A DNA stretch of 64,000 bases from Filimonas lacunae (GTDB taxonomy: Bacteria; Bacteroidota; Bacteroidia; Chitinophagales; Chitinophagaceae): positions 434,001-498,000 of the forward strand of contig NZ_AP017422.1 in assembly GCF_002355595.1 (NCBI RefSeq), in the 5' to 3' direction. The first letter of the stretch is position 1. Each line of letters begins with the position of its first letter. A program made the position numbers and the translations under genes. Shown here one piece after another: positions 24,099 through 34,331 of this stretch. The notes under the pieces were generated by a model, which was given only the letters and a program-made list of their open reading frames with translations, was not told where the DNA came from and did not search any database.

Positions 24099-25082
24099 AT
24101 GAAGAAGTTGTTATGTGGTAAAAATTGCCTGGTGGCAGTTCTTTTATCTGTTACGGTTTTTCTTACCTGTTCCGTGTCGGCACAAACGGGGTATTTGTAT
24201 AGTGAGAAAACTTACAAGACCGTTATGCAGGCTTGCCAGGCTTATATGGACTATATGTATAAGCGGGATGATAGTAGCCAGAATACATTATCAGGAGTTA
24301 AGATTAAACATACAGGCAGGGCTGTTGCCCTTAGCCGACAGTGGTATGGGGTGGTGGTAACCAAAACAGATTCCTTTGAAGATGGCGAAAAGCGCAGTGA
24401 GACATTTCCTGTTACAGATAATCTGATAGAAGTAGTGAATCTGGAAAGTATGCCAGCTATCATTCCGCCCACTCAACCTATTCTTACAGATAGGAAGGGG
24501 AAGGAGATGGGGAAGTTTGAAAGGGGAAGGCAGTTGATTATTACTGATCCAGCTATTTTGCTATACGGTGGTAACGTAATTCAGTTAGCGCCTGATAAAA
24601 CAACTACCATTACAGGAACGATGGATGATGTGGAAGTGGTGGCGTTGAGAGGAAGAACTTCTGATGGTAAAGCACTCAACGGTATTACGCTTTCGGGTGA
24701 GGTGAATGACGGTGGTGTAAATATTTTACGGTCGCCCCGGTGGGGAGAGCTTAAAAAAGAATATGGAAAGAAGGTGGGGAAGAATGAATGGGTATACGAC
24801 TGGGAAAGCATTTCAAATAAGTTTTGGGAAGAGATTAACGAACCATGGCTGGAAGCAGCGGTGCTGTTGGGAGATCCGATCAGGTTAGAGTCGAACCCTG
24901 CAAAAGACCGTGCTATTTTTGTTACGGATGCTAAGGGTGAATTTGTTTTGAGCAATGGAAAAAAGGTGCCATCCATCTTTGGCAGAGAAGTAGCGTATAT
25001 TACATCAAAGGGGTATAAGATACAGGCAGATGGAACTGCTATAAAAAAAGAATTATGTCGTACTATCCTGAAAAATATTTAA
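24099..25082 (+). CDS. Secreted protein with possible polymorphic-toxin-like C-terminal region
   Basis: 327 residues with a signal peptide (about 1-29, ending VSAQT). The N-terminal part is unrecognised. The last about 85 residues (from FWEEINEPWLEAAV through FGREVAYITSKGYKI) resemble a C-terminal region I associate with Bacteroidota polymorphic toxins, in which an INxPFL-type helix and an FGxEVxYLxxxGY motif recur. I could not verify this. The downstream gene overlaps it by 28 bases, as toxin and immunity genes often do, but a signal peptide directly on the toxin is unusual. Confidence 0.55.
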   Translation: MKKLLCGKNCLVAVLLSVTVFLTCSVSAQTGYLYSEKTYKTVMQACQAYMDYMYKRDDSSQNTLSGVKIKHTGRAVALSRQWYGVVVTKTDSFEDGEKRSETFPVTDNLIEVVNLESMPAIIPPTQPILTDRKGKEMGKFERGRQLIITDPAILLYGGNVIQLAPDKTTTITGTMDDVEVVALRGRTSDGKALNGITLSGEVNDGGVNILRSPRWGELKKEYGKKVGKNEWVYDWESISNKFWEEINEPWLEAAVLLGDPIRLESNPAKDRAIFVTDAKGEFVLSNGKKVPSIFGREVAYITSKGYKIQADGTAIKKELCRTILKNI

Positions 25083-25471
25083 CCGCTGATATACTAAAGC
25101 AGGTACTGGATAAATATCCCTGGCCTGCACCTTATGACCTTACAGATGGAGTTGCCGGAAATATACTGGTGCATTTTCCTGCCTGTACACTGGTGTTTAT
25201 GGAAGGCTTTGAAAGCAGTATGAATGCTTATTTCCTGAACAGCCAGTCTGGCCGGACTGACTCACAGGCATCGCTCAGTGTTTTTGAGGCTGCTGGTAAA
25301 GTAAGGTTACTCCGGCAGCAGATACCTGGTTTTAATGAGCCGGATGAATTCAATGAATTAGGCCCGGATGCTTCCCGGGAAAAAGTGATGTTAGGAATAG
25401 ACAATATCTGTATGCTGTTACAGAATTATTTGCTGCCGTATATAGCAGGGGATATGCCTGTAAGATTTTAG
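25055..25471 (+). CDS. Hypothetical protein, candidate immunity partner
   Basis: 138 residues, no signal peptide and no membrane segment. Its ATG lies 28 bases inside the preceding gene in another frame, implying translational coupling. It contains NILVHFPACTLVFMEGFES and a helical, acidic C-terminal half. I do not recognise a family. If the upstream gene is a toxin, the position and size fit an immunity protein; a secreted toxin with a cytosolic partner would protect only against uptake. Confidence 0.55.
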   Translation: MSYYPEKYLTADILKQVLDKYPWPAPYDLTDGVAGNILVHFPACTLVFMEGFESSMNAYFLNSQSGRTDSQASLSVFEAAGKVRLLRQQIPGFNEPDEFNELGPDASREKVMLGIDNICMLLQNYLLPYIAGDMPVRF

Positions 25472-25607: not shown

Positions 25608-27029
25608 ATGCAAACCCATGCCGATAAAAAAACGTCCCAGCGGGCGCCTGTCGCTGTTGGACAAACTTCTTCACACCAGAATAACAGTATTCAGTTACAA
25701 CAGTTAAGACAGTTTCAGAAAATAGCAGGCAACAGCAGGCATGTGCAACAACTGAAAGCCATGCAGGCCAGGATGACTGGGCATGTAAGCAATAGTGCTG
25801 TTGCGCAACGGAGAGTTTTTATTGGTGCCAATGAGATGACCCCGGTAAACGGGCAGCGATCGCACAATGCACTGTTGAATGGAGTAAAAAAGACACTTGA
25901 TAGCAGGGATAAAGGACTAGGATTTGTAAAAGATGAATATATACGAAAATACAACGATGAAGCTGAATTTAACGATCATAGTAAGTCCAGACCGGTAGAA
26001 GTGGGGTTGGCCCGGAAAATGGGTAGATGGTACAGGTTACCGGAACTGAAATCAAATAAAGAATTTTTTGTGCTGGGTGAAAGCCATGGCACTTTTGGGT
26101 ACCGTGAATTGGTGGCGGAGAGTAACCTGTCGGGGAAAGTGTTGGGCGAAGGCGGTACAAGGGACATCCTTTCTGCTACCGGCAATGCTAAGATAGAGAT
26201 GAATGAGAGTGCGGATGCTTTAAAAGAGAGAAATGGTACGTCCAGAGAGGGGAAAATGGAAACTACTTTCGCTAAAAATTATTATGCATTAGCCGAATTA
26301 AAAGTGGGATTGGAGGCAATGATCGGTAATAGGGGAGTGATGCCTGCGAGTACCAGGAACATGCAGGCAGAAAGTGCCTGGTTAGGGGATTATAAGGCTG
26401 CGGCTGATCGCGGTGAAGATGCTGGTAGTAAGTTGCCTTTTTATAAGCATCATGGTGAGAAGTATTATGCTACTACCGGTTCAGCTGCAGAAAATTACGA
26501 TGTAGTTGCTACCGCTAAAAGCTTACTCACTAAGTTAAATACTGCCATCGTAACTTATCTTACCAAACATAAGAACAAAGCTGCTGCATATGCAGGCACG
26601 CTGGTGGATGCCATGCTGAATGAATTAACCAGAACGGACACGCTGGTAGATGCAGATGAAAAAGTAAAGGGTTTAAAGAATGCAATAGTATTGATTGACA
26701 AGCTGTCGTATGTTATGGAATACCTGTCTAAAAAAGAAGCAAAAGAACAGGAGTTTCCTACAGACGGTACCACCATGGGAGAAAGGGTAACTGCTGTTAA
26801 CAATGCTGCTTTTGCTGCAAGATGGAGTGATGATAGGAAGAAGGCTTTTGCATACAGAGACTTCTCTATGTTTAAGGCTGTTGTAAAAGCAAAGAATGAT
26901 GGGGATTATATAATGGCTGGTATGGGCGACTGGCATGCACAAAACCTGAAAACAGCCTTACAGGCAGAGCATATAAAAGTATTAACGCTAAATGATTTCT
27001 TCGCGAAAACAACCAATGCCATTGTGTAA
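25608..27029 (+). CDS. Effector-like protein resembling contractile-injection-system cargo
   Basis: 473 residues without a signal peptide. The first about 65 residues are Gln/Ser/Asn-rich (QLQQLRQFQKIAGNSRHVQQ) and end near AVAQRRV. This resembles the leader of DUF4157-type proteins carried by Bacteroidota extracellular contractile injection systems. Residues about 150-170 read FFVLGESHGTFGYRE and residues about 435-455 read MAGMGDWHAQNLKTAL. The first motif (GExHG) is like the start of erythromycin-esterase/ChaN/TraB-type domains and the second like their late His motif. Both points come from memory of motifs, not from a search. No injection-system genes are in the window. Confidence 0.5.
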   Translation: MQTHADKKTSQRAPVAVGQTSSHQNNSIQLQQLRQFQKIAGNSRHVQQLKAMQARMTGHVSNSAVAQRRVFIGANEMTPVNGQRSHNALLNGVKKTLDSRDKGLGFVKDEYIRKYNDEAEFNDHSKSRPVEVGLARKMGRWYRLPELKSNKEFFVLGESHGTFGYRELVAESNLSGKVLGEGGTRDILSATGNAKIEMNESADALKERNGTSREGKMETTFAKNYYALAELKVGLEAMIGNRGVMPASTRNMQAESAWLGDYKAAADRGEDAGSKLPFYKHHGEKYYATTGSAAENYDVVATAKSLLTKLNTAIVTYLTKHKNKAAAYAGTLVDAMLNELTRTDTLVDADEKVKGLKNAIVLIDKLSYVMEYLSKKEAKEQEFPTDGTTMGERVTAVNNAAFAARWSDDRKKAFAYRDFSMFKAVVKAKNDGDYIMAGMGDWHAQNLKTALQAEHIKVLTLNDFFAKTTNAIV

Positions 27030-27129: not shown

Positions 27130-28341
27130 TTATAGGCTATCATTTCCTGATCTGTCATAAATTCGACTTATATCATTTATCAAGGCCCGATTATTATCAT
27201 TCTCGTAACGCCCAATAATCATTCCTTTAGGATCAATCAATATTTTAGTAGGTAAAATAGATACTCCGTAAAGAACCATAATATCATTTTGATACCGATC
27301 TGAAAGCCCATGCTGCCAAAGTTCAACTTTATCCCTTTTTATTGCTTCTTTCCATCTGTCCTGCGAATCAGCATCATCAGCAATGGCAATAAATGCAATA
27401 TTCGCCTTATTTCTTTTTAATACTTGATATAAAGAATCCAGTTCAGGATTCTCTTTTCTGCAGGGCTTGCACCAAGATGCCCAAAAGATCAACAAGACAT
27501 ATTCCCCTTTATAATCAGCCAGCCGGATTTTTTTTTGCACTGGATTGGTTGCCTCAAAATCACTTGCAATAGTATACATTGCACCGCTTTTCCAATTGTT
27601 CATCTTCAGTTGCAGGTTTTTACCGTACCGGCTGTTCTGCACTTCAGCCCCTAGCTGCTCATAAAAGGTATAAAATAAGGCAGGGGAAAGACGATTCATG
27701 GTATATGTTAATTCATGGGCTGTAACAATAGAGTGGGGGTGATTTCTAAAAAAAATAGTATCAATTGTAAATAACCTTTGACTCAAAGGAGCTGTTTGTT
27801 CCTTTAAAGAGTCCATTTTGTCACCAATCAAATCGAGCAAAGTCGAAGAGTCCTTAAGTTTGCTCAATACTATATATCTGTAATTCAATTCTTCATACTG
27901 CCTGTTTAGGGGCGCCAGCAAAGAAGCTGCTTCCCCTCTCAATCGCTTTAATTCTTTATGTTCATTTTCTGTATCAGACCCTGTTAAATCAGGCAAACCA
28001 AAAACATTATTCGTGAAGCGTAAGGTCAGCAGCTTTGGTTCAATAAAAAAAGAGGTGGTATTGGTATCAGAGGCATTCCATCGCTTTGCGTTTCGCTTTG
28101 ACAAAAAGGCCAATACCGGTTGGGAAATATGACCTTTGAAATGAAAGCCTCCATTTGTTACCAGGGAACTGTCCATTATTATTTTTTCTGATGCAGAAAA
28201 ATAACTTAAATACAAGTACTTACCATCCATCTGCTCTACGGTGCCATTTAATAGAAATACACCTTTGGATGCTATTTGAGCATTCATAAGAAAAGGAAAC
28301 AAAAAAAACATCGTTACTACGAGGTTAAGATATCGCAACAT
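27130..28341 (-). CDS. Periplasmic TlpA-like thiol-disulfide oxidoreductase with DUF4369-like N-terminus
   Basis: 403 residues. A signal peptide (ending LMNAQ) precedes a beta-rich region like DUF4369 (about 28-130), a helical linker (about 135-250), and a thioredoxin domain with WCKPC near residue 290 and a cis-Pro in SILPTKI. TlpA-like proteins of this layout exchange disulfides in the periplasm. The gene lies 59 bases downstream of the cysteine-rich peptide gene in the same direction. It may reduce or isomerise wrong disulfides in that peptide, but these proteins are common in the phylum, so the link is inferred from position. Confidence 0.85.
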   Translation of the reverse strand: MLRYLNLVVTMFFLFPFLMNAQIASKGVFLLNGTVEQMDGKYLYLSYFSASEKIIMDSSLVTNGGFHFKGHISQPVLAFLSKRNAKRWNASDTNTTSFFIEPKLLTLRFTNNVFGLPDLTGSDTENEHKELKRLRGEAASLLAPLNRQYEELNYRYIVLSKLKDSSTLLDLIGDKMDSLKEQTAPLSQRLFTIDTIFFRNHPHSIVTAHELTYTMNRLSPALFYTFYEQLGAEVQNSRYGKNLQLKMNNWKSGAMYTIASDFEATNPVQKKIRLADYKGEYVLLIFWASWCKPCRKENPELDSLYQVLKRNKANIAFIAIADDADSQDRWKEAIKRDKVELWQHGLSDRYQNDIMVLYGVSILPTKILIDPKGMIIGRYENDNNRALINDISRIYDRSGNDSL

Positions 28342-28400
28342 AACTATAATAAAGTCACAAGATAGTGACTACAAAGTAATCACTATCTCATGATAAATTT

Positions 28401-28619
28401 TTAATCACATATAACAACACTTGCTTTTGAACATTCATAGCCTGTATCAGAACAGCCAGAACAGATCAAACCTTTGCAACACTTGGAATCCTGCTGGTCG
28501 CATTGCGAACCTGATTTAAGGCATCCGCCTGCACCATCATCACCACCCATAATCTTTCTCATTTCATCACGGCTAAGCATGCCTTGAATGTCCTTCAATT
28601 GAAATTTTGTTTGTCTCAT
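28401..28619 (-). CDS. Gly-Gly-leader, cysteine-rich (knottin-like) secreted peptide precursor
   Basis: 72 residues. The leader (1-26) ends LSRDEMRKIMGG, a typical double-glycine leader cut by C39 peptidases. The remaining 46 residues contain eight Cys at 33, 40, 47, 48, 53, 56, 63 and 71, that is C-x6-C-x6-CC-x4-C-x2-C-x6-C-x7-C. The C-x6-C-x6-CC-x4-C part is the spacing of inhibitor-cystine-knot peptides; even Cys number suits four disulfides. The core is small, Gly/Ser-rich and has a short acidic start. It sits between two thiol-oxidoreductase genes and next to a C39 exporter, so it is probably exported and oxidised. Activity (bacteriocin, signal or other) is unknown. Confidence 0.85.
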   Translation of the reverse strand: MRQTKFQLKDIQGMLSRDEMRKIMGGDDGAGGCLKSGSQCDQQDSKCCKGLICSGCSDTGYECSKASVVICD

Positions 28620-28707
28620 TGTTTTTCATTTTGTAATGTTGATTAATAATCTGTTTTGCCGAATGGGAGGCACAAATTCTTTAAGCCCTTTTTCGCGAAA
28701 AAAAAGT

Positions 28708-30354
28708 TTATTGTAGAAAATAATTCAGATCTTTCAATTCGTACATAGCAGGCAGCTGGTTGCCGTTGATAAAAAAAGTGGGTGTATACCTTATATCAAC
28801 TTTATCACACCACGCATCCATAGCTTCCAATTTAGAAGCCTGCCTGAGCAATTCTCCATTCATGGGATATTTACCAGCAAAAGCATCAAAATTCAACATC
28901 CCTTCTTGATACCAATCATCCAGAGCCTTTTTGGTAACCTCGGCATTATTCTTTTCTGCAATAGCAAGTAAATAACGAACTGGAGGTGCTTTGAAATCAT
29001 CTTCATCATTAGAAGCCGTAAATATTATCTGTACCTTCAGATTGTTATTATTCTCCAGAAGTTTTTCTATTTCAGGGTGAGCATTAGCGCATGGCCCGCA
29101 ATAAGGACTGCAAACTTTGATAATGGTATTGGTTGCTGCCGGATTACCCAGCAGAATCCCCATCCCTTCTGTAGAATAGGCTATCTTTTTCGACTTATTC
29201 AATAGAGTTGAAAATATTTCTTCATTATACTTCATTCGCATGAATTGCCTACGAGAACGTTTAGCATTTTGCACTTTAATAAACAGGGGCTTTAGTAGAT
29301 ACCAAAATCCAATTGTTGCAAAAACAAGCAAAAGAGGAATTGCCGCAAAAGGCTTAAATGTTATGGATACAAATGAAGAAGATAGAATGCCTGAACTAAG
29401 GGCAGTAACAAATTCTAAAGCCAGAACAGCTTGCACAGATAAGCAAAGTAAACACCACTGCTTTGCCACTCGCCATTGATAAAAAATAGAGAAGAATGTA
29501 TAGGGCAATGCGCATAAATTAAGGAGGACTAGCAGTGAGACTATATAAAAAGCATTTTCGGCCGGCAGCAAACTGGCAATTAACATTGATAAAAAGCTAC
29601 CTGAAAAATAAAAGAAGCCTATCTCACTCCAGCTTATTACAGAAAACAATTTTGAACTTTTGGAGTTCAGGATTGCATTGCAATTCATCGCTTTTCCTCC
29701 CCCCGTGCATAACTTTTGTAAAGCGGGATTAACTTTATCTATTTCATACCAAAGCAGGAGACTTGTAAAAAAAAGGCCGGCAAGTTTTAGTGATAATAAT
29801 ACGGAGTAACCCCATGTAACGCCCGCACTTGCAGCCCCGAAGCTAAAAGCGATAATAGGTAATATGAACATCACGAGTCCTATTCCTATATTCAAGCGTA
29901 ATTTATTTTGAGAAAGGCGCTCTTTTTTTCTACTCTCAAAATAGTTTTTCTCACCGGAGGCTTCATTTGCTTCTACAAATAATGTAATGCTGCTCCATAT
30001 CTTTAAAAATTCGTCTCTCGATATAACAAACGGTTTTTGTTTATCTGTATAGTAGGTAATCTTATTTTCAGTTACTCCGGTTACCAGCAAATAGCTTTCT
30101 CCCTTTTTAGTATTACAGTCAGCGATAAACGGTAATGGATAAAAATCCAAATCTTCTATAGATGCACGGACAATACGTGTATCTATCTTCCAGGAATGTA
30201 ATGCATCATGCAAACTCAACATACTGGGATAATCGGGATGGTTTTGCAGGGTTTCAGATATAGTACTATCTGTAACAGGCACTTTCAGTAAACGCAATAA
30301 TTTTTGAATTACTGATACGGCTTTTTCATTACCGTTAAAAACGTCTTTAATCAT
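28708..30354 (-). CDS. Fusion of C39-like (Cys-less), VKOR and DsbA-like thioredoxin domains
   Basis: I start at the ATG at 30352-30354 (548 residues), as the longer frame adds an unlikely 34-residue extension. Residues about 5-130 resemble a C39 peptidase fold (QNHPDYPSMLSLHDALHSW, YLLVTGV) but lack the catalytic Cys. Four or five transmembrane helices follow with VKOR marks: a Cys pair in the loop (CTGGGKAMNC), a Ser/Trp motif (SWSEIG) and the WCLLC active site. The C-terminal thioredoxin-like domain has VCSPYCGPC near residue 416 and cis-Pro in YTPTFF. It probably forms disulfides de novo using quinone. It precedes the peptide gene by 88 bases in one operon. Confidence 0.87.
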   Translation of the reverse strand: MIKDVFNGNEKAVSVIQKLLRLLKVPVTDSTISETLQNHPDYPSMLSLHDALHSWKIDTRIVRASIEDLDFYPLPFIADCNTKKGESYLLVTGVTENKITYYTDKQKPFVISRDEFLKIWSSITLFVEANEASGEKNYFESRKKERLSQNKLRLNIGIGLVMFILPIIAFSFGAASAGVTWGYSVLLSLKLAGLFFTSLLLWYEIDKVNPALQKLCTGGGKAMNCNAILNSKSSKLFSVISWSEIGFFYFSGSFLSMLIASLLPAENAFYIVSLLVLLNLCALPYTFFSIFYQWRVAKQWCLLCLSVQAVLALEFVTALSSGILSSSFVSITFKPFAAIPLLLVFATIGFWYLLKPLFIKVQNAKRSRRQFMRMKYNEEIFSTLLNKSKKIAYSTEGMGILLGNPAATNTIIKVCSPYCGPCANAHPEIEKLLENNNNLKVQIIFTASNDEDDFKAPPVRYLLAIAEKNNAEVTKKALDDWYQEGMLNFDAFAGKYPMNGELLRQASKLEAMDAWCDKVDIRYTPTFFINGNQLPAMYELKDLNYFLQ

Positions 30355-30510
30355 ATCTGGCTTTTTTATCGGGGTGATAAACCCCCTTGGGGGAAGTTGT
30401 AATAAGATTAGCGAATGTAATTTAAGTACTCCCCATAAGTTTTGCTTGATAAACATACATAAAAAATCAATTCAAAAAAAAATCTATATTAGACGTTCAT
30501 TTATTAACGT

Positions 30511-32697
30511 ATGTCATTTCATTTTTACACGCAGCTCAACTCTATGGATTGTGGGCCTACCTGCCTGCGCATGGTTATCAAACACTATGGCAAACATTAT
30601 AGCGCTGATTTTATACGACAACAAATGGGATTTAGCAAGGCAGGAGTTTCTCTATTGGGCATAAGTGATACAGCTGAAAAAATGGGATTTCGCACAAGAG
30701 GCCTGCAGATTAACTATAAGATGCTTCAGAATGTACAGCAACCCAGTATTTTACATTGGGATCAAAATCATTTTGTGGTACTAATAGAAGCCAGTAAAAG
30801 AAAAGTAAGAATAGCAGACCCGGCGCATGGCATATTAATGTATACACCAGAAGAATTTCAGGAACACTGGGCTTCCAATATATCTGAAAAGGATGGGAAA
30901 GTAGGTACTGTACTCATGCTGGAGCCAACACCTGATTTTTACAATGACTATGGGGATAAAGAAAAAAAACTAAGTTGGGGTATTTTTACACAATATCTCA
31001 GGCAAAACCGATGGCAGATCTCTCAGGTCTTTTTTTCGCTTCTACTCAGTTCTATCATTCAATTGCTGCTTCCTTTTCTAACGCAAACAATGGTAGACAC
31101 AGGTATCAATACCCAAAACCTTCAGTACATTACAATTGTATTAATAGCACAGCTTACCCTTACATTTAGTAATGCCATTGTTGTGTTTATTCGAAGCCGG
31201 CTCCAATTAAACATCTCTAACAGCATTAACTTATCTCTCCTTTCTGATTTTTGGATAAAACTCAGCCGGCTCCCTTTGTCTTATTTTGATTCCAGGCATA
31301 CAGGTGATACATTGCAGCGCATTAACGACAACCAGCAAATACAGAAATTTTTAACAGGAGATGCCTTATCCATTATATTTTCGGGTGCTAATTTTTTAAT
31401 TTATGCTGTTATTTTGACTTTCTATAGTGTGCCTTTATTCCTCGTCTTTATGACCGGTAATATTTTATACTTTGGATGGATACGTCTGTTCTTATTTCTG
31501 CGCCGAAAAATTAACTACCAGACATTTCACCTTTCGGCCACAGAGAACAATGCCACATTGCAGTTAGTGCAGGGCATGCAGGAAATCAGGCTAAACAATG
31601 CGGAAAAATTAAAACGGTGGGAATGGGAAAATATACAGGCGCTGATATATAAGCTCAATTTTAAAAGCCTGAACTACAATCAGTGGCAGTCTACAGGCGG
31701 CTTATTCATTACACAAGGCAAAGATATTATACTTAGCTTTATGGTAGCTAAAATGGTAATTGAGGGGCAATTAACATTCGGAACTATGCTGGCAATTCAA
31801 TATATCATAGGGCAACTAAGCAGCCCGGTGCAACAGCTAATTGGCTTATCTCAAAGCATCCAGGATACAAAAATAAGTATGGAGCGCTTAAACGAAATAC
31901 ACACTCTTAAAGAGGAAGAACCTCCGGAGCAGCACTTTGTTAATGAATTGCCTGAAAGCAAAACACTTTCTATACAACAGCTTTCCTTTACCTATCCTGT
32001 TGCAGGAAGTAATCCCGTACTGGAAAATATAAGTCTCACCATACCAGAAGGAAAAACAACCGCTATTGTTGGCGTAAGTGGCAGCGGCAAAACAACGCTT
32101 TTAAAGATCTTATTAAAGGTATACGAAGGTTACGATGGTAATATACATGTAGGAAATAAAAACTTCAGGCATCTTGGCCACACTTTCTGGCGTAACCAAT
32201 GCGGTTCAGTGTTACAGGATGGGTATATTTTTAACGACAGTATTGCCCGTAACATCGCCGTAAGCGATGAGTATATAGATTATCCTAAACTATTAGATAG
32301 TTGTAAAATAGCCAATATTCTTTCTTTTATTGAAACACTTCCCAATGGCCTGAATACAAAATTAGGTGCAGATGGTACCGGAATAAGCCAAGGGCAACGC
32401 CAACGGATATTAATTGCCCGCGCAGTTTATAAAGACCCACAATACCTTTTTCTGGATGAAGCCACCAATGCTTTGGATGCGAATAATGAAAAAGACATTG
32501 TGGAAAACCTCCAGGATTTTTTTAAAGGAAAAACGGTGATTATAGTAGCACATCGGCTTAGTACAGTAAAGAATGCAGACAACGTCATTGTACTGCATAA
32601 TGGTCAGGTAGCAGAAGAAGGCTCCCACGAGTATCTTGCTTCTATACAGGGTAAGTACTATGAACTTGTCAGGAATCAACTTGAATTAGGACAATAA
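30511..32697 (+). CDS. C39-peptidase-containing ABC exporter (PCAT)
   Basis: 728 residues. N-terminal C39 peptidase with catalytic C14 (SMDCGPTCLR), H88 (WDQNHFVVL) and D103 (RIADPAHG); it removes double-Gly leaders. Then a six-helix exporter domain (about 160-450) and an ABC ATPase with Walker A GVSGSGKTT (from residue 521), signature GISQGQRQR (about 624), Walker B QYLFLDEA and the His switch IVAHRLS. It is divergent from the peptide operon with 156 bases between, and is followed 10 bases later by an HlyD adaptor gene. It very probably exports the peptide encoded at 28401-28619. Confidence 0.95.
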   Translation: MSFHFYTQLNSMDCGPTCLRMVIKHYGKHYSADFIRQQMGFSKAGVSLLGISDTAEKMGFRTRGLQINYKMLQNVQQPSILHWDQNHFVVLIEASKRKVRIADPAHGILMYTPEEFQEHWASNISEKDGKVGTVLMLEPTPDFYNDYGDKEKKLSWGIFTQYLRQNRWQISQVFFSLLLSSIIQLLLPFLTQTMVDTGINTQNLQYITIVLIAQLTLTFSNAIVVFIRSRLQLNISNSINLSLLSDFWIKLSRLPLSYFDSRHTGDTLQRINDNQQIQKFLTGDALSIIFSGANFLIYAVILTFYSVPLFLVFMTGNILYFGWIRLFLFLRRKINYQTFHLSATENNATLQLVQGMQEIRLNNAEKLKRWEWENIQALIYKLNFKSLNYNQWQSTGGLFITQGKDIILSFMVAKMVIEGQLTFGTMLAIQYIIGQLSSPVQQLIGLSQSIQDTKISMERLNEIHTLKEEEPPEQHFVNELPESKTLSIQQLSFTYPVAGSNPVLENISLTIPEGKTTAIVGVSGSGKTTLLKILLKVYEGYDGNIHVGNKNFRHLGHTFWRNQCGSVLQDGYIFNDSIARNIAVSDEYIDYPKLLDSCKIANILSFIETLPNGLNTKLGADGTGISQGQRQRILIARAVYKDPQYLFLDEATNALDANNEKDIVENLQDFFKGKTVIIVAHRLSTVKNADNVIVLHNGQVAEEGSHEYLASIQGKYYELVRNQLELGQ

Positions 32698-32707
32698 TAA
32701 TTCCAGA

Positions 32708-34024
32708 ATGGCAAACACAACCAATCGGTATACCATTAAAGAAGATACGGATAAATCAACGCTGCAATCAGAAATGACCAGGGAAATTATTTCCAGAAAG
32801 CCTGGTTTTTTCGAAAAATGGGCGTTGGCGATTTTTAGCATTATTCTATTATTACTACTTACAGCTTCCTGGCTGATAAAGTATCCGGATGTGGTAACAG
32901 CAAAAGCAACCATTACGACAGGAAATGCACCTAAAGAGATTGTAATAAAAGAGGAAGGGCGTATCGTAAAACTATTTGCGCAAAACGATCAACTTGTAAA
33001 AAAAGGCGCGGTACTGGGGTGGATGGAAAGTACAGCCAACCATGCCGAAGTTTTGTCCTTGTCCATGCTGCTGGATAGCAGTATTAACCTGTCTGATCCC
33101 GGTCAGATTAAAAATCTTTCAAGCTTGTTCTCGCTTGGCTATACTAACCTTGGAGAAATTCAGCAAGGTTATAGAGAATTCATTACATCCCTGCAACTGT
33201 TTAACGATTATATGACAAATGGTTTCTATTCCAATAAGAGAGTCATGCTGGAAGATGATGTAAAAACTTTAGATAAGACCCGCTTAACTATTTTGCATCA
33301 AAAAGAATTGACGCAGCAGGATATCAGGCTTTCTGAAGATCGTTTAAAGATGCAGAAAGCTCTTCTTGATCAAAAAGTGATTTCCAGGGATGAATTTCAT
33401 ACAGAAGAAAGCAGATTGTACAACAAGCAAATATCTATACCGCAGATTGACGCTTCTTTGCTCTCCAATGAGACACAGAAAAGAGAAAAAGAGAAGGAGT
33501 TGAGTCAACTGGATCACGATATGGCACAGCAACAACTTATTTTTCGTCAGGCATTACAGTCGTTAAAAAGCTTAATAGATGATTGGAAGAAAAAATACGT
33601 CATACAATCGCCTTTAAATGGCAAGGTATTTTTCATCATCCCCATTCAGGAAAATCAGTTTTTGCCCCAGACTAAATTGATAGGTTATGTAAATCCGGAC
33701 GACAGATACTTTTACGCAGAGGCCAATCTGCCTCAGGCAAACTTTGGCAAAGTAGATACAGGTTTGAAGGTGCAACTCCGTTTTGATGCTTATCCCTTTC
33801 AAGAGTATGGCGTTGTCAATGGAACATTGAATTATATCTCTAATATTCCTTCAGACAGCGGCTTTCTTGCCACTATTCGTTTAAATAATAAGTTGAAAAC
33901 AAACAACAATAAAGAGATCCCTTATAAAACCGGCCTTAAGGCCGAAGCAGTCATTATCACCCAAAATATGAGGTTACTGGAGCGTTTTTATTATGATATA
34001 ATCAGGGCAACTTCCAGAAAATAA
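32708..34024 (+). CDS. HlyD-family membrane fusion protein
   Basis: 438 residues: one N-terminal transmembrane helix (about 37-60), a split lipoyl/barrel-sandwich domain (EIVIKEEGRIVKLFAQNDQ and its later half NGKVFFIIPI), a coiled-coil hairpin (about 165-290, with Gln/Glu/Lys repeats) and a C-terminal beta barrel. It links an inner-membrane ABC exporter to an outer-membrane channel. Coupled to the PCAT gene by a 10-base gap. No TolC gene is adjacent, so the outer-membrane part is likely shared. Confidence 0.93.
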   Translation: MANTTNRYTIKEDTDKSTLQSEMTREIISRKPGFFEKWALAIFSIILLLLLTASWLIKYPDVVTAKATITTGNAPKEIVIKEEGRIVKLFAQNDQLVKKGAVLGWMESTANHAEVLSLSMLLDSSINLSDPGQIKNLSSLFSLGYTNLGEIQQGYREFITSLQLFNDYMTNGFYSNKRVMLEDDVKTLDKTRLTILHQKELTQQDIRLSEDRLKMQKALLDQKVISRDEFHTEESRLYNKQISIPQIDASLLSNETQKREKEKELSQLDHDMAQQQLIFRQALQSLKSLIDDWKKKYVIQSPLNGKVFFIIPIQENQFLPQTKLIGYVNPDDRYFYAEANLPQANFGKVDTGLKVQLRFDAYPFQEYGVVNGTLNYISNIPSDSGFLATIRLNNKLKTNNNKEIPYKTGLKAEAVIITQNMRLLERFYYDIIRATSRK

Positions 34025-34228: not shown

Positions 34229-34247
34229 CAAATCACTGATTTCAGTG

Positions 34248-34331
34248 TGCCCAGAACAGGAATCGAACCTGCACTTCCTTGCGAAAACAAGATTTTGAGT
34301 CTAGCGCGTCTACCAATTCCGCCATCTGGGC
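34248..34331 (-). tRNA. tRNA-Leu(CAA)
   Basis: The reverse strand folds as a class II tRNA of 84 bases, counting the discriminator A at 34248. The acceptor arms are GCCCAGA and TCTGGGC, the D loop has AATTGGTAGAC, there is a long variable arm, and the T arm is GGTTCGATTCC. The seven-base anticodon loop reads CTCAAAA, so the anticodon is CAA and it reads UUG. The CCA tail is not encoded. Confidence 0.95.

Follow-up and report, generated by a model that had tools for sequence, protein, structure and literature searches.

Bacteroidetocins, proposed as class IIf bacteriocins by Coyne et al. 2019 (PMC6671954), are the closest known system to a peptide locus of Filimonas lacunae which lies in the 64,000-nucleotide stretch analysed here (the window; bases 434001-498000 of contig NZ_AP017422.1, in a single-contig 7.81-Mb genome). 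Going by that paper, both systems belong to Bacteroidota, both involve a Gly-Gly leader and cysteines thought to form disulfides, neither shows an immunity gene, and in both a thiol oxidoreductase and a C39-peptidase ATP-binding cassette (ABC) exporter adjoin the Cys-containing precursor. The minus strand of the F. lacunae locus carries genes for a C39like-VKOR-thioredoxin fusion, the precursor and a TlpA-like protein, and genes for a C39-ABC exporter and an HlyD adaptor lie divergently on the plus strand. A sequence-only reading had described five genes in two divergent units; all five open reading frames (ORFs) were found where it placed them, and Pfam assigned the four large ones. We consider it probable that a disulfide-bonded and probably knotted mini-protein is produced and exported from this locus by means of an inverted, leader-docking fusion and then the C39 exporter.

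Compared by description, bacteroidetocins A and B have a leader of 15 amino acids and a core of 42 with four cysteines, as against 26, 46 and eight for the window precursor. Their loci encode an unknown protein with five transmembrane segments, and the paper (PMC6671954) mentions neither VKOR nor HlyD in its text, whereas the window combines the fusion and HlyD with a knottin-like core. Relative to the VKOR-thioredoxin of Synechococcus (PDB 4NV5), the window fusion adds an N-terminal degenerate C39 domain, an extra helix and a predicted inverted orientation. HlyB-type exporters (PDB 3ZUA) also have a degenerate C39-like domain, fused there to the transporter and here to an oxidase. Among the matches listed in a search of licence-limited literature, no title or abstract opening described a VKOR/C39 peptide system, and neither a C39-VKOR-thioredoxin protein nor disulfide formation guided by a leader was reported in them. 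The VKOR of Aeropyrum pernix is said to exist in an inverted form, and its topology, going by the title of a 2017 study by Hibender et al., reportedly promotes disulfide formation in two compartments; we know of no leader-binding domain or peptide-export locus associated with this archaeal protein.

A scan of named genomes returned 170 relatives, and 78 of the loci were fetched. The fusion had been read as VKOR-DsbA; its VKOR and thioredoxin parts were confirmed, but a third part had been overlooked. Pfam placed a C39 domain at residues 42-164 (E 7.1e-12), ahead of VKOR (219-352, 1.3e-14) and Thioredoxin_4 (431-577, 1.5e-11), and this N-terminal C39 domain lacks the catalytic residues. As in other VKORs, two loop cysteines and a CxxC motif are present within the helix bundle, and the six redox cysteines are kept in 40 of 40 aligned fusions. 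An AF2 model, computed with 64 of the 77 fusion ORFs from fetched loci plus that of the window, had a predicted local distance difference test score (pLDDT) of 92.6. Translation probably starts at Met-35 (base 30354), since 104 of the 117 unique fusions (65 from fetched named-genome loci, 51 from other loci, and that of the window) are 520-565 amino acids long, as compared to 582 for the window ORF. No other VKOR and no DsbB were found in the F. lacunae genome.

Ordinary bacterial VKORs carry their cysteine loops and thioredoxin on the periplasmic side. Lysine and arginine residues were counted in three cytoplasmic and three periplasmic segments, as defined by this ordinary orientation. For the controls, ordinary VKORs from this phylum, the counts were 7.57 in the cytoplasmic versus 2.22 in the periplasmic segments, with the expected sense in 23 of 23; the 30 control loci had been picked as top-scoring VKOR matches in a phylum sample, a choice which favours ordinary VKORs. 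For the first set, L111, L123, L127 and L132 were omitted from the controls before counting, and L115, L134 and L126, the last an ORF that lacks the C39 part, were taken as fusions. The fusions of this set gave 1.16 versus 12.42, reversed in 43 of 43, and those of an enlarged set 1.12 versus 12.5, reversed in 116 of 116 (one of the 117 unique fusions lacked the anchors). Judged by the positive-inside rule alone, the fusions do not conform to the usual periplasm-facing orientation. Ahead of the VKOR bundle, 112 of 116 fusions have an extra hydrophobic helix, versus one of the 10 controls, among 23, that had enough upstream residues for the measurement. The C39-like domain would therefore lie on the same side as the active site and the thioredoxin, and because of the positive-inside rule this shared side would be the cytoplasm. 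We infer that the fusion is an inverted VKOR with its C39-like domain, VKOR active site and thioredoxin all in the cytoplasm; this predicted topology is the main new claim of the analysis.

The precursor had been taken for a Gly-Gly-leader peptide with eight cysteines, and this description held: a 26-residue leader precedes the 46-residue core, which contains all eight. C39 peptidases, as described in PMC6363468, read leader positions including L-12, E-8, -7 and -4, followed by GG, GA or GS; the window leader shows L-12, E-8, hydrophobic M-7 and I-4, and then GG, as in C39 (double-Gly) substrates. The precursor was matched in 14 of the 294 family genomes sampled, F. lacunae included (E ≤ 0.01), and small ORFs combining a C39-type leader with four or more cysteines in the core were present in 73 of the 78 fetched fusion loci, so that a chance ORF can be dismissed. 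As a sole query the window precursor found few relatives, because it is mainly the leader that is shared. Ala-Gly is the ending of 18 of 54 leaders examined; a strict leader pattern, which missed this type, gave no peptide for 30 of 78 loci, a number that fell to five with the widened pattern. Homologous loci lacking a Cys-rich leader peptide, which the sequence-only reading had named as evidence against itself, thus amount to at most five of 78, and in one of these, L182, a laxer pattern did detect such a peptide. Altogether, 283 leader/Cys ORFs were found in 154 sources, 244 of them unique (the sources contain loci fetched twice), as compared to one in the reversed DNA of the same sources, a control which speaks to how often the pattern arises by chance and to nothing else.

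Leaders are common across the precursors, and cores are highly divergent. The relatives' leaders show L-12, E/Q-8, M/L-7, I/V-4 and G-1, part of this consensus having been required by the search pattern itself. Among 72 aligned precursors (71 of the 76 from fetched loci plus that of the window, all from the strict pattern), NCBIfam models matched at E ≤ 0.1, with curated cut-offs not applied, as follows: NF047798 in 49, TIGR04149 in 35, NF047792 (CCPGW) in 14 and NF038158 in 12. NF047798 (leader_Chryseo, "bacteriocin-like protein") is a leader model of 18 positions, on which the window precursor scored 15.5 bits, under the cut-off of 23.5.

Cores hold 4-10 cysteines each, and the number is even in 216 of 228 clusters (the parity control drew on 56 of the 154 sources), matching the expectation for disulfides. 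Together with the recurrence of the peptides beside the fusion, this bears out the prediction of a dedicated system oxidising and exporting a Gly-Gly, Cys-rich peptide. The knottin spacing C..C..CC..C..C fits 28 of 244 cores, that of the window included (200 shuffles: mean 4.9, maximum 13). By sequence and by fold, predicted for the window core and five cores from fetched loci, the window core gave weak matches to knottin toxins, and for some cores the matches are to knottins whose disulfide structure is known. In cysteine spacing and in its small fold, the window core resembles spider and sea anemone knottin (inhibitor cystine knot) toxins; it is bacterial, however, with a C39-type leader, and the matches are weak. 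The knottin of the sequence-only reading is thus one core type among many.

Pfam upheld the assignments of exporter and adaptor. The exporter has an intact C39 domain (E 5.2e-33) joined to ABC membrane and ATPase domains, as in peptidase-containing ABC exporters (PCAT/AMS), and Q8, C14, H87 and D103 are kept in 75, 76, 76 and 75, respectively, of 76 exporters, the window's included; the adaptor matched HlyD_3 (E 6e-12). An outer-membrane channel had been noted as not visible, and indeed no TolC-type channel was present among the genes scanned at the window locus or in the representatives of shared families, but 50 TolC-type (OEP-domain) matches occur elsewhere in the genome. The TlpA-like gene, which had been counted as part of the set, is recurrent but accessory, being present in 37 of 56 loci of at least 20 kb. 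In one relative's locus (L023:7495-19839), TlpA-like genes are interspersed in alternation with several copies of the precursor gene, an arrangement which suggests a separate thioredoxin for every peptide.

In the mechanism we propose, the leader would be docked by the degenerate C39 domain of the inverted, cytoplasm-facing fusion, a step suggested because the leaders bear the positions read by C39 domains and because degenerate C39 domains of toxin exporters recruit substrate (PMC6363468). Going by VKOR/DsbA chemistry, the thioredoxin domain would then oxidise the core cysteines in the cytoplasm and be re-oxidised by VKOR, with electrons passing to quinone. The folded precursor would move to the C39-ABC exporter, whose intact C39 domain would cleave after Gly-Gly, the recognition and catalytic residues being present, and the peptide would exit by way of HlyD and of a TolC-type channel whose gene lies elsewhere. 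The TlpA-like protein, if periplasmic, would probably reshuffle or proofread disulfides.

Were the VKOR oriented as usual, the active site, the thioredoxin and the C39-like domain would be periplasmic, and the peptide would be oxidised once it had been exported and had lost its leader, the order presumed for bacteroidetocins. Those bacterial VKOR-thioredoxins that have been characterised lie in the periplasm, the TlpA-like partner with its signal-peptide-like N-terminus appears to do so too, and unfolded peptides are usually thought to be the cargo of C39 exporters. The charges are nevertheless reversed in every fusion of the enlarged set and normal in every control, and the extra helix would force the C39-like domain, for which no signal peptide is evident, to the periplasmic side, where peptides arrive already stripped of the leader; we therefore regard periplasmic oxidation as somewhat unlikely. 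The oxidation foreseen by the sequence-only reading stands as far as the oxidising system is concerned, but from the charge distribution it is predicted to be cytoplasmic and to precede export. It is also conceivable, though doubtful, that the degenerate C39 domain serves to attach the fusion to the exporter and not to bind the leader. Covariation between leader and C39-like domain, tried twice, pointed in the same direction as leader docking but was weak and nonspecific and, once controlled, no stronger than that for the exporter core.

Two further readings concern the fate of the cysteines. Thioether rings, as in lanthipeptides or radical-SAM ribosomally synthesized and post-translationally modified peptides (RiPPs), are hardly credible: leader models named for these classes match weakly (TIGR04149 and NF038158, at the E-value and counts given above), but the even cysteine counts and the disulfide former as the constant enzyme speak against them. 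Dehydratase, cyclase and radical-SAM domains were absent from nine scanned window proteins and from the representatives of the 13 further families shared by at least five of 79 loci, one of which had no Pfam match. Metal binding by the Cys-rich cores, with the thiol enzymes merely maintaining redox state, could draw on the number of cysteines, on the 42 of 244 cores with at least two histidines and on the fact that HlyD/TolC systems move metals too; the loci, however, are defined by the gene for a quinone-linked oxidase, some cores match disulfide-bonded knottins, and histidine makes up 1.3% of core residues, which renders this reading very improbable.

By textbook, bacterial disulfide formation is periplasmic. 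Whether the peptides form a dedicated ribosomal class, in which a leader-guided, quinone-linked maturase introduces disulfides in the cytoplasm into diverse Cys-rich cores, knottins included, across Bacteroidota, seems to us evenly balanced. If so, disulfide formation would be comparable to any other leader-directed RiPP modification, and a cytoplasm-facing oxidase for tagged peptides would account for disulfide-rich products in a genome in which neither DsbB nor another VKOR was found. The 244 distinct precursors with at least four cysteines represent a large peptide library, in which some members share their Cys pattern with channel toxins of animals, and the fusion enzyme could serve the production of knotted peptides in bacteria. 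By analogy with bacteroidetocins, the peptide most likely acts in antagonism of other bacteria.

Table 1. Features of the peptide locus (positions within the window)
Feature	Position	Strand	Remarks
Precursor peptide, 72 aa (amino acids)	28401..28619	-	ORF; same build as peptides beside other fusion genes
Leader, residues 1-26	28542..28619	-	L-12, E-8, M-7, I-4, G-2, G-1
Core, 46 aa, eight Cys	28404..28541	-	C-x6-C-x6-CC-x4-C-x2-C-x6-C-x7-C, knottin-like
C39like-VKOR-thioredoxin fusion, 548 aa from likely start	28708..30354	-	ORF extends to 30456
Degenerate C39-like domain of fusion	29965..30345	-	
Extra transmembrane helix preceding VKOR bundle	29833..29901	-	Alignment to solved VKOR starts only downstream of helix
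VKOR domain of fusion	29401..29802	-	C250, C259, C335, C338 of P0002
DsbA/ScsC-like thioredoxin domain of fusion	28726..29166	-	CGPC (C453, C456)
TlpA-like thioredoxin + DUF4369	27130..28341	-	Pfam; WCKPC; signal-peptide-like N-terminus (by eye); accessory
Peptidase-containing ABC exporter, intact C39	30511..32697	+	Q8, C14, H87, D103
HlyD-type periplasmic adaptor	32708..34024	+	HlyD_3, Pfam
Intergenic stretch between the divergent units, presumed to hold the promoters of both	30355..30510	.	By position alone

Fusion matches (E ≤ 1e-20, some partial) were obtained in 41 of 294 sampled family genomes, representing 28 of 101 genera; of two genomes of the same genus, one has the fusion. The fetched loci come from Chitinophaga, Niastella, Niabella, Sediminibacterium, Mucilaginibacter, Pedobacter, Parapedobacter, Sphingobacterium, Runella, Hymenobacter and others. 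In the 78 loci plus the window, the commonest BLAST families were the fusion (79 of 79, by selection), C39-ABC (59), HlyD (49) and TlpA/DUF4369 (46); in fragmentary genomes, contig ends may be the sole reason for a missing gene. The next family, a response regulator, occurs in nine of the 79 loci. Representatives of the 13 further families (in at least five of 79 loci) were assigned by Pfam to regulators, glycosyltransferases, DUF6625, DUF6734, another thioredoxin, a TonB receptor and housekeeping types, one being without a match; no RiPP-modifying protein was apparent among them. In seven of 98 loci, within the 154 sources and outside the 78, tblastn with the window sequence gave no VKOR.

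Glycosyltransferase, DUF6625 or DUF6734 genes are also borne by some loci (L166, L168, L175, L209, L221, L224, L227 and L232), several of them with Ala-Gly leaders; the peptides of these loci may also be glycosylated. Two or three fusion genes per locus occur in L169, L174 and L215, with a precursor near each in L169. More distant fusions, many of them adjoined by similar peptides, were seen in other families of the phylum (L115, L134, L135-L153). At L019:6953-7423, tblastn matched residues 1-98 of a C39 domain of exporter type and, directly adjoining in the same frame, the final 60 residues of the fusion's thioredoxin domain; this has the look of a novel fusion or of a remnant left by recombination.

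A consensus pattern of Bacteroidota promoters had no match at the locus and one in the window, below chance expectation. Upstream, two adjoining ORFs at window positions 24099-25471 were assigned to no family by searches including Pfam and PHROGs, and a 473-aa ORF at 25608-27029 has no significant Pfam or PHROG family; PHROGs gave no match for the three upstream ORFs of the window. The N-terminus of the 25608-27029 ORF may resemble cargo of extracellular contractile systems. Directly past the HlyD gene lies a tRNA-Leu (caa) gene (34247-34331, minus strand), which possibly marks an insertion boundary.
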